A stretch of DNA of 64,000 nt from an uncultured Kiloniellaceae bacterium (GTDB lineage Bacteria; Pseudomonadota; Alphaproteobacteria; Kiloniellales; Kiloniellaceae): positions 1,054,001-1,118,000 of the forward strand of contig CANLSF010000002.1 in NCBI GenBank assembly GCA_947493695.1, read 5' to 3'. Positions 34,030 to 42,538 of the stretch are shown here, one piece after another; the stretch's first letter is position 1; the number at the start of each line of letters is the position of its first letter. Both the position numbers and the translations under genes were made by a program. Below the pieces are notes generated by a model. It was not told the origin of the DNA. It made no database searches and saw only the letters and a program-made list of their open reading frames with translations.

Positions 34030-34377
34030 ATGCCTCCCAAGAAGAATCCGCTTAAACTCAACAAACTTCAACTGCGCACCCTGGCGTTGGCACAGATCCT
34101 GGCGCGTGATCCCGCGATGGCGCAGCAGATTGAGACAACCGGGGAAGCCGCGCTGCTGCAAGTGCCCCACGCCCATGGCAACCACCTGCACGTCGGCGAC
34201 TTCACGGTCTCCACGCGGGACGCCAGCGGCCTGACCAATCCGGCTGTCTGGTCAGCACTTGCCCGGAAAAAACTGATTCACACAGCAAACCCAATGGCGA
34301 TCGCGACCCTGACCCCTGAAGGCTTGGCTTACGATACGGGCCTGGGTCATCACTTTATGACACCTTCCGATCATTAG
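34030..34377 (+). CDS. Conserved small protein, unknown function
   Basis: A 115-residue basic, soluble protein: Lys-rich N-terminus (MPPKKNPLKLNKLQLRTLALAQILA), then a His-rich middle (PHAHGNHLHVGDF), then a C-terminal winged-helix-like stretch (PAVWSALARKKLIHTANPMAIATLTPEGLAYD). The histidine cluster could bind a metal. I do not recognise a family. Its stop codon TAG is the first three bases of a solo TAGGTTGAG end of the repeat element seen intact at 41571-41914, so its original C-terminus may have been altered. Confidence 0.65.
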   Translation: MPPKKNPLKLNKLQLRTLALAQILARDPAMAQQIETTGEAALLQVPHAHGNHLHVGDFTVSTRDASGLTNPAVWSALARKKLIHTANPMAIATLTPEGLAYDTGLGHHFMTPSDH

Positions 34378-34390
34378 GTTGAGAACTCAC
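34375..34390 (+). repeat. Solo end of the TAGGTTGAG inverted-repeat element
   Basis: TAGGTTGAGAACTCAC matches the outer end of the element at 41571-41914 (TAGGTTGAGGACTCAT) at 14 of 16 positions. No matching opposite end occurs before the next gene, so this is a remnant or a decayed copy. It supplies the TAG stop codon of the preceding gene, as the intact copy does for thiG. Confidence 0.5.
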
Positions 34391-37457: not shown

Positions 37458-37518
37458 ATCGCTGCAGACACCGTACAAAAAACTGGAACTGCACGCGCCT
37501 GCGTGATATCGATTTAGT

Positions 37519-40591
<3,073 letters not shown>

Positions 40592-40595
<4 letters not shown>

Positions 40596-40789
40596 GGGTC
40601 ACGGTTAACGGTCAGCCGCATGAGACCGCGGCGGCCACGCTCGCCGAACTTCTGAGCGAACTGAACTATGATGGCGCGGTGGTTGCCACCGCGCTGAACG
40701 GCGAGTTCGCGCCCAAAGGCCAACGCCTGGAACTGGCGGTGACAGAGAACGACCAGATCGAAGTCATCGCCCCCATGAAGGGCGGATAA
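40592..40789 (+). CDS. thiS: Sulfur carrier protein ThiS
   Basis: A 65-residue ubiquitin-like protein ending in Gly-Gly, the residue pair that is adenylated and thiocarboxylated to donate sulfur to the thiazole. It opens [21 protein letters not shown]. Its ATG overlaps the thiO stop (ATGA), and thiG follows after four bases. Confidence 0.95.
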
Positions 40790-40793
40790 CCAC

Positions 40794-41573
40794 ATGAGCC
40801 TCGACCTTTACGGCACGACAGTGCAATCCCGCCTCCTGCTCGGCACTTCGCTCTATCCCTCGCCCGCAATCATGCTGGAGTCCCTGAAGGCTTCCGCCGC
40901 CGAGATCGCAACAGTTTCCCTGCGCAGGGAGTCGGGCACCGAGCGCGCCGGTCAGGCCTTCTGGTCTCTGATCAAGGATTCCGGCGTCCAGGTCCTGCCC
41001 AACACAGCCGGCTGCAAGACCGTCAAGGAAGCCGTCACCACCGCGCAGATGGCGCGCGAGCTTTTCGACACGCCCTGGGTCAAGCTGGAGGTAATCGGCG
41101 AAGACGACACCCTTCAGCCGGACGTATTCGGACTGGTCGAAGCCGCCCGTATCCTCTGTTTCGAAGGCTTCGAAGTCTTTCCCTACACCACGGAAGATCT
41201 CGTAGTCGCCGAGAAGCTGCTGGCCGCCGGTTGCGAAGTCCTGATGCCCTGGGGCGCGCCCATCGGCAGCGGACGCGGCCTGAATAATCTCTACGGCCTG
41301 CGCAGCCTGCGGGCTCATTTTCCCAAGGTGCCGCTGGTCATCGACGCGGGCATCGGTCTGCCGTCCCATGCCGCCCAGGCCATGGAGATGGGCTACGATG
41401 CCATCATGCTCAACACCGCCGTCGCCAAGGCCGGAGATCCGGTCGCCATGGCCAGGGCCTTTGCTGCAGCCACGGACGCAGGCCGCACGGCCTATGAAGC
41501 CGATCCCATGGAAACCCGCGACATGGCTGCCCCCTCGACCCCCGTCGCCGGCACGCCTTTTTGGAATAACTAG
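40794..41573 (+). CDS. thiG: Thiazole synthase ThiG
   Basis: A 259-residue TIM-barrel protein. It condenses deoxyxylulose phosphate, the glycine imine and ThiS thiocarboxylate into thiazole phosphate. The catalytic lysine is in [17 protein letters not shown] (about residue 97), and the phosphate loop in [30 protein letters not shown] and [11 protein letters not shown] is complete. The final codons read FWNN then TAG. That TAG belongs to the first bases of the inserted inverted-repeat element; before the insertion the stop would have been TAA, overlapping the thiE ATG. Confidence 0.96.
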
Positions 41574-41914
41574 GTTGAGGACTCATAATCTTTGATGGTC
41601 TTGATTGTATTTTGCCGGGTTTTAGGCAGGCGAGGTCTCGAAAGCGGGCCTATCGGCCCGGTAAGAGGCGTCAACGCACCTAAAACCCGGCAAAATACGA
41701 CCTGCCTGGAACGTGGTCCCCAGGCGATAAGATTATGAGTTCTGGGAACCGCGTTCCGGGAACCGCGTTCCGGGAACCGCGTTCCGGGAACCGCCGTGCC
41801 ATCGGTCCAATTCTGGCAGGGGCACGACGCTGCAGCATAGATCCGCTCTTAACTCCTTGCCAGAAAACATCATTTTATCGTCAAGATCATCAAAGAATGT
41901 GAGTCCTCAACCTA
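41571..41914. mobile_element. MITE-like 344-bp element between thiG and thiE
   Basis: Both ends carry TAGGTTGAGGACTC. The terminal inverted repeat extends to 34 bases with 31 identical (41571-41604 against 41881-41914). Inside lies a perfect 20-bp hairpin arm pair (41607-41626 with 41679-41698), a shorter inverted copy of the ACTCATAATCTT motif at 41729-41740 and a run of short palindromic repeats. There is no open frame for a transposase. If the outermost TA is a target duplication, the insertion site was the TA of a TAATG junction of thiG and thiE. This is the behaviour of non-autonomous IS630/Tc1-like elements, though the parent is not identified. Confidence 0.8.
41744..41795 (+). repeat. 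14-bp tandem repeat of a palindromic unit inside the element
   Basis: GGGAACCGCGTTCC is repeated three times head to tail (41744-41757, 41758-41771, 41772-41785), with a degenerate fourth start (GGGAACCGCC). Each unit contains the palindrome GGAAC-CGC-GTTCC, so the array can fold into several alternative small hairpins. Replication slippage could change its copy number. Confidence 0.85.
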
Positions 41915-42538
41915 ATGCTCGATCCCTTTTATCTCATCATCGACGATGTCAAATGGCTGCCGCGTTTTCTGCCCCTGGGCCTGAAGCTGGTCCAGCTGCG
42001 CATCAAGGACAAACCCGAAGACGAACTTCGCGCACAAATCGCAGAAGCCCAGACCGCCTGCGCCAAGGCAGGCTGCCAGCTGATCGTCAACGACTACTGG
42101 CAACTGGCCCTGGAATTGGGTTGCGACTATGTGCACCTGGGCCAGGAAGATCTGGACGATGCGGACGTCACGGCGATCCGCGAAGGCGGCATGCGTCTCG
42201 GGGTCAGCACCCATGACGACCAGGAACTCGACCGCGCCCTTGCGCTGACGCCGGATTATGTTGCACTCGGTCCCGTCTATCACACCATCCTGAAGGCCAT
42301 GCATTGGGCACCGCAAGGCGTGGAGAAGGTCACCGGCTGGAAAGAAAAGGTCGGTGACGTACCCCTGGTCGCCATCGGCGGACTGAACATCGAGCGCGCT
42401 CCCGGCGTTTTCGAAGCGGGCGCGGACTCCATATCGGTCGTGACCGACGTCCTGCTGGCCGAAAGCCCCGAGGCACGCCTGAGCGAATGGCTTGCACTGA
42501 CCGCCTCACGCCGCACCACCCAATCCCGGATCATTTGA
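41915..42538 (+). CDS. thiE: Thiamine-phosphate synthase ThiE
   Basis: A 207-residue TIM-barrel enzyme that joins hydroxymethylpyrimidine pyrophosphate to thiazole phosphate. It shows KLVQLRIKDKP (pyrophosphate-binding Arg/Lys), LIVNDYWQLALELGCDYVHLGQEDL, GVSTHDDQEL, GPVYHTILKAM and AIGGLNIE. The ATG directly abuts the right end of the 344-bp element (CCTA then ATG), so no normal ribosome-binding site stands before it. Only GAGTCCTC of the repeat lies in that position. Expression may therefore be lower than that of the upstream thi genes, or depend on read-through folding. Confidence 0.93.
   Translation: MLDPFYLIIDDVKWLPRFLPLGLKLVQLRIKDKPEDELRAQIAEAQTACAKAGCQLIVNDYWQLALELGCDYVHLGQEDLDDADVTAIREGGMRLGVSTHDDQELDRALALTPDYVALGPVYHTILKAMHWAPQGVEKVTGWKEKVGDVPLVAIGGLNIERAPGVFEAGADSISVVTDVLLAESPEARLSEWLALTASRRTTQSRII

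Follow-up and report, generated by a model that had tools for sequence, protein, structure and literature searches.

Between thiG and thiE in the thiamine operon of an uncultured Kiloniellaceae bacterium lie 344 bp of inverted-repeat DNA, and the locus raises the question of what this DNA is, how it arrived there and what its arrival did to thiE. The original prediction, made on the 64,000-nucleotide stretch of DNA analysed here (the window), described a 344-bp element with 34-bp terminal repeats whose first three bases, TAG, form the stop codon of thiG and whose last base abuts the ATG of thiE. The coordinates and open reading frames agree with this description, and the features of the locus are as follows.

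37516..37630, + strand: TPP riboswitch aptamer (RF00059), upstream of thiC
37598..39574, + strand: thiC, open reading frame as listed, true start possibly downstream; Pfam or NCBIfam support
39528..40595, + strand: thiO, best match TIGR02352 at 240.2 bits, slightly under the cut-off of 250.8
40592..40789, + strand: thiS, Pfam or NCBIfam support
40794..41573, + strand: thiG, Pfam PF05690, stop codon completed by the element (TA + G)
41571-41914: MITE copy in the window, 344 bp between thiG and thiE
41571..41604, + strand: left terminal inverted repeat, beginning with the left TA of the target duplication, which with the next base forms the thiG stop TAG
41607..41698, + strand: internal hairpin, arms 41607-41626 and 41679-41698, complementary throughout
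41739..41794, + strand: tandem array, four copies of the 14-bp unit GTTCYGGGAACCGC
41881..41914, - strand: right terminal inverted repeat, ending in the right TA copy, which immediately precedes the thiE ATG
41915..42538, + strand: thiE, Pfam PF02581 and NCBIfam, start codon abutting the element

The terminal arms of the element, 34 nt each, are 91% complementary, and removal of 342 bases from the junction gives AACTAATGCTC (also given as AACTAATG), so the TAATG reconstruction proposed beforehand was reproduced. The region 41560-41930 has a computed folding energy of -191.2 kcal/mol versus a mean of -116.2 kcal/mol for shuffled sequences (z = -13.2); as none of the 100 shuffles was equally stable, the fold is not a product of chance. 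The element had no match above gathering score in Rfam, and a relaxed E-value brought up four matches, all well under their gathering scores. A promoter scan returned a single weak promoter-like site at the left end of the element (41561-41589), and a terminator scan returned none within it. Elsewhere in the window, positions 34375-34388 (+ strand) hold a lone match to the terminal sequence (TAGGTTGAGAACTC), for which no partner was matched at one mismatch; this may be a relic or a chance occurrence.

The explanation that we favour, with a probability of roughly 0.8, is that the 344 bp are a non-autonomous MITE of a family found in one genus only, putatively mobilised in trans, which was inserted in the species lineage at the TA of a thiG-thiE overlap, for which stop codons would be safe sites, and which would have decoupled thiE. 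It is founded on the repeat family, the empty sites, the single TA found at other loci, the YTAR context and the stop-codon excess described below.

A repeat family found in one genus and its target

Among 61 genomes of the order, the family was found in four at E <= 1e-6, all of one genus (7, 18, 69 and 49 match rows in these genomes, one copy giving several rows). Besides the window copy, the own genome contains a diverged second copy (L090, C1:212624-212895) and a partial copy on C6. An exact 21-base pattern, scanned for in named genomes that may not include the own genome, occurred in 28 stretches, all of them in Denitrobaculum tricleocarpae R148 or one uncultured Kiloniellaceae bacterium. 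Sixty places were fetched from the match rows, which is a selection rather than every fragment; 14 were removed on manual inspection because they were truncated or had no clear end, and the remaining 46, with both ends and near full length, make up with the window copy a set of 47 copies of 271-402 bp (two in genome G000, four in G001, 22 in G002 and 19 in G003). As a short, non-coding, multi-copy sequence with inverted ends and a target duplication with empty sites, the family belongs to the MITE class. Among the literature matches listed, the excerpts consulted held no description of it.

The number of 14-bp units in the array varies among copies. L056 and L093 have two versus seven under a strict pattern; as they have common flanks on both sides, they look like one insertion in two species. 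A consensus structure was derived from 41 of the 47 copies (alignment A1, with L062, L066, L069, L077, L079 and L093 left out). In it, both partners have changed at 31 of 80 pairs and 96.6% of cells are paired, values that all 500 shuffles fell short of; in slid controls 36-47% of cells were paired and 7-13 pairs had changed on both sides, the structure being derived from the same alignment as was tested and the controls leaving relatedness in. The helix of the window's internal hairpin (41607..41698) has both-side changes at 13 of its 22 pairs across the 41 family copies. Arm exchange could be the source of part of this compensation.

Several other arrangements were seen. In L077 the inner hairpin has the opposite orientation to that in other copies, which is what recombination between its arms would produce. 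Two 60-bp stretches (G002:C5:151501-151560 and G003:C1:653320-653379, in L114 and L115) carry two terminal sequences back to back, and are either minimal family versions or decay products. L053, L060, L071, L078 and L079 (G002 and G003) are flanked by a second, commoner repeat, with pairs of ~62-bp matches ~7 bp apart and dozens of rows, which may be a further small mobile repeat of this genus.

At the thiG-thiE junction itself, all three sibling genomes of the genus (L032, L033, L034) are empty and thiG runs directly into thiE. Since this is so, the element at this junction is, by sequence comparison, a lineage-specific insertion, in keeping with the claim that it would not be common to all relatives. 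The sibling junctions read AACTGATG or AGCTGATG, that is TGATG, a one-base stop-start overlap; the overlap which the element was held to have parted is thus present in the siblings, and the anticipated TAATG was right in its one-base overlap but not in its letters, from which the siblings differ by one base. If TA was the target, a change from TGA to TAA would have preceded the insertion in the window lineage. Junction sequences differ again in more distant members of the bacterial family. The terminal repeats of the window copy are diverged and its best full-length relatives are at most 84% identical, so the insertion is not very recent.

Over the whole family, TA stands at both ends of 35 of the 47 copies (CTAG 21, CTAA 8, TTAG 4, TTAA 1, GTAG 1), and in 34 of these 35 the context is YTAR; the other 12 copies are without TA at one or both ends. 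Of the ends that begin with TA, 41 of 42 on the left and all 38 on the right continue with G. When 16 joined sites were compared with the four genomes, 11 candidate empty sites for seven of the 16 could be read among the matches listed, and the junction was TA in eight of these sibling comparisons and TG or TC in three. Clean empty sites with a single TA were obtained for L075, L077, L081, L089 and L090 (seven comparisons), L090 showing TG in one of three siblings. At L057/L120 a TA is present, but the sibling has element-like sequence at the site and it was not counted as clean; L098, with no TA in two siblings, was set aside. The proposed TA target is therefore consistent with the MITE family as a whole, which carries the duplication at most copies and a single TA at empty sites.

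Stop codons and the predicted consequences for thiE

Using a simple home-made codon-usage gene caller, we placed 19 of the 47 copies on a stop codon, 21 in intergenic DNA and seven within coding sequence. The null consisted of tetranucleotide-matched sites in 275 kb of element-excised DNA, cut into equal-sized pieces and drawn from the window and 28 copy-holding stretches of two siblings rather than from random genome. Among non-coding copies with TA at both ends, after removal of flank duplicates, 18 of 28 lie on stops versus 6.65 expected (P ~1e-5), a pattern that was noticed before it was tested and that could reflect survival bias or insertion preference. Without the window copy the same test gives 17 of 27 versus 6.51 (P = 2e-5), and the non-coding copies among all 47 give 19 of 40 versus 9.41 (P = 0.00055). 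Coding scores of the flanks show the same tendency: 22 of 29 inward-reading flanks with a score of at least 5, counted by eye, end in frame at the TA, where one third would be expected.

Of the 19 stop copies, 18 complete the stop codon with an end that reads TAG and one (L061) with an end that reads TAA, and the copies lie in both orientations relative to the gene (9 and 10). The second copy of the own genome, L090, is also on a stop, where a gene with a CoA-ligase domain ends; 13 nt beyond its right TA comes the ATG of a D-2-hydroxyacid dehydrogenase gene. Because the ends nearly always supply a G after the TA, insertion into TAA or TAG leaves a stop codon in place and both proteins unaltered, and we infer that stop codons are safe landing places for the element. 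Among the literature matches listed, no report of a stop-codon bias of a MITE or IS was found in the excerpts at hand; a related case in the portion of PMC2516522 consulted is that of an IS481-family IS, whose own stop lies within its CTAG target. A YTAR target combined with TAG-reading ends suggests a simple rule by which mobile DNA could build up on stops in compact genomes, and the rule can be applied to any genome with IS5-type elements.

For thiE, the original prediction had held that the insertion uncoupled the gene and removed its natural ribosome-binding site. Loss of the overlap stands, and loss of a strong site does not: anti-Shine-Dalgarno pairing before thiE is weak both here and in the siblings, the best duplexes within 25 nt being -3.3, -3.3, -4.3 and -4.4 kcal/mol, of which the -4.3 duplex lies too far upstream to count and the -4.4 duplex is interrupted. 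As the siblings pair weakly too, what was lost is the overlap and not a strong ribosome-binding site, and this fits with overlap coupling having been the earlier main route of thiE translation. The foot of the element's hairpin now lies between the thiG stop and the thiE start. Since thiE has no second match in the own genome, a cell that synthesises its thiamine by this route must still produce ThiE.

These observations bear on whether the element is a neutral passenger, with the overlap lost but thiE still translated sufficiently and no regulatory meaning attached, a reading to which we give somewhat less than even odds. Both proteins are intact, thiE has been retained as the sole match of its genome, and its anti-Shine-Dalgarno duplex energy is no worse than that of the siblings. 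However, a weakly initiated gene that used to begin in a one-base overlap now starts 344 nt further downstream, beyond a very stable hairpin, for which general knowledge would lead one to expect a reduction.

Our favoured explanation, insertion of a trans-mobilised MITE that decoupled thiE, predicts the following course. A transposase of IS427 type would act in trans on the element ends, and the element would enter the TA of the stop-start overlap, where its TAG-reading end would restore the thiG stop and leave ThiG and ThiE unchanged. The insertion would end the translation-coupling overlap and place a very stable hairpin between the two genes; thiE would then initiate independently at a weak site at the hairpin foot, and its output would be expected to be lowered or re-set, probably being lower or differently set than before. 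The locus offers a clean natural experiment on operon evolution, with thiG and thiE overlapping in three species and separated in a fourth while the proteins are unchanged.

A selected role has also to be weighed, in which a domesticated element forms an RNA hairpin between the two cistrons and, as a processing site, stabiliser or attenuator, sets the dosage of thiE. The strong fold of the window element, the compensatory changes that maintain the hairpins at 31 of 80 pairs, beyond all 500 shuffles, and the position of L090 at a stop codon, followed 13 nt beyond its right TA by a co-directional start, would all suit such a role. But the structure belongs to the whole family rather than to thiG-thiE, stop copies occur about equally in both orientations, and the arm inversion in L077 means that part of the compensation may be recombination, so we consider domestication unlikely. 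Less probable still, in our judgement, is a reading in which the family is a self-spreading intercistronic module: the target rule and TAG-reading ends would make stops its true niche, the conserved hairpins would act on mRNA 3' ends and junctions, and at thiG-thiE the hairpin foot would bring stop and start next to each other, allowing some terminating ribosomes to reach the thiE AUG across 340 nt.

Candidate mobilisers and known systems

Since the genomes that carry the element also contain some IS427-type ISs with similar ends and a target of the same kind, a transposase of the IS5 family, IS427 type, is a moderately supported candidate for mobilising the element in trans. IS427-group elements follow a YTAR target rule; the family has a YTAR target and a 2-bp TA duplication in 34 of 35 TA/TA copies. 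Two loci encoding DUF4096 proteins, L221 (853 bp) and L223 (844 bp), are bounded by inverted ends that start with TAGG; beyond the TA, the tips of L223 match the element tip at 12 of 16 positions at both ends, and the tips of L221 match it at 9 and 10. In the window, 12 of 16 was reached by three of 2,758 TA-anchored tips, two of which are, by their score, the element's own ends. In the own genome, L220 contains an open transposase frame of 283 aa (PF13340 and PF01609, with 253 aa submitted to Pfam) flanked by the ends TAGGTCGCGTACTCATTA and TAGGACGTGGACTCATAA, and its tips match at 14 and 15 of 18 positions including the TA; the 1.3 kb between its ends counts against it. At L220 positions 780-820, element-like terminal sequences lie ~120 bp from this IS427-type element of the own genome.

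The transposase of L221 and L223 lies in more than one frame, which is either a feature of the group, transposases in multiple frames being known in IS427-group elements from the part of PMC3281130 consulted, or decay. No IS with ends identical to those of the element was found, and the other DUF4096 loci (L219, L222, L225/L227) had other ends or none that were found, so the mobiliser is a candidate only. The family itself is perhaps of the IS5/IS427 kind, with an unusual stop-codon excess.

A TA duplication and a palindromic element would also fit an IS630/Tc1-mariner transposase, as in the pneumococcal RUP repeats and IS630-Spn1 (PMC2229807, in excerpt), and DDE_3 proteins occur in three of the four genus genomes. 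None of the three DDE_3 loci has matching ends, though; two of the three matches are partial, one of them with an internal stop, and none is in G000. The ends of some IS427-type loci are a better match, and the table in the excerpt of PMC3281130 gives 2-bp repeats for most elements of the IS427 group. We therefore regard an IS630-type mobiliser as improbable.

An autonomous partner was also looked for as a pair of terminal repeats ~0.7-2.5 kb apart; ten stretches (L110-L119) were examined and none was accepted. Ten of their ORFs were compared with Pfam and comprised regulators, transporters, a DUF2306 membrane protein, a kinase, a GcvT-like protein, one unmatched ORF and a Y1 transposase in L110. 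The Y1 (IS200-like) transposase was rejected as mobiliser, six of the eight Y1 loci of the genus being without a terminal repeat, including L235 of G000 with the same ORF length. A lone terminal repeat at two of the eight Y1 loci, in similar surroundings, likewise falls short of a REP/RAYT arrangement. In those two cases a lone 33-34-bp terminal repeat lies upstream of a Y1 (RAYT-like) gene (L236, 1915 onward, and L232, 1410 downward; G002:C2 and G003:C10).

Comparison with known systems, based on excerpts of the papers cited, places the element nearest to several small mobile repeats. It resembles the IS427 group of the IS5 family, as described for Paracoccus ISs (PMC3281130), in its target duplication, which is mostly 2 bp there. 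The IS427-type elements of this genus, so placed from DUF4096 and size rather than from an IS database, are 844 and 853 bp long with ends TAGG-N-TC and ACTC or ACCC, and L220 encodes DUF4096 and DDE_Tnp_1. Unlike them, the element has no transposase and its tips are similar rather than identical; its 34-bp terminal repeats compare with inverted repeats of 13-21 bp in the excerpt of PMC3281130. MITEPsy1 of Pseudomonas syringae (PMC3189936) is likewise small and non-coding, with a CTAG or YTAA target and a suggested IS5-type parent, but is 100 nt long with a 4-nt duplication and 18-nt terminal repeats; its six copies lie in genes, intergenic DNA or transposons, and no stop-codon bias was found described in the excerpt. 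BrickBuilt of Porphyromonas gingivalis (PMC4596501) is a MITE with an internal minisatellite and IS5-family-like terminal repeats; its unit is 23 nt, its duplication is of variable length in few intact copies, and the excerpt contained no term for stop codons. QMITE2 of Coxiella burnetii (PMC5896051), for which RNase III processing has been suggested, is a stable-stem MITE at the 3' end of the enhC gene, but its in-frame insertion lengthens the protein in one strain, and it is a single case, with no family bias found in the excerpt. RUP differs in its link to IS630-Spn1 and its length of 107-155 bp, and the excerpt of PMC2229807 was not found to describe a tandem array in it; like the element, both RUP and Correia/NEMIS are palindromic MITEs, RUP lying at TA targets and the hairpins of NEMIS being proposed RNase III targets.
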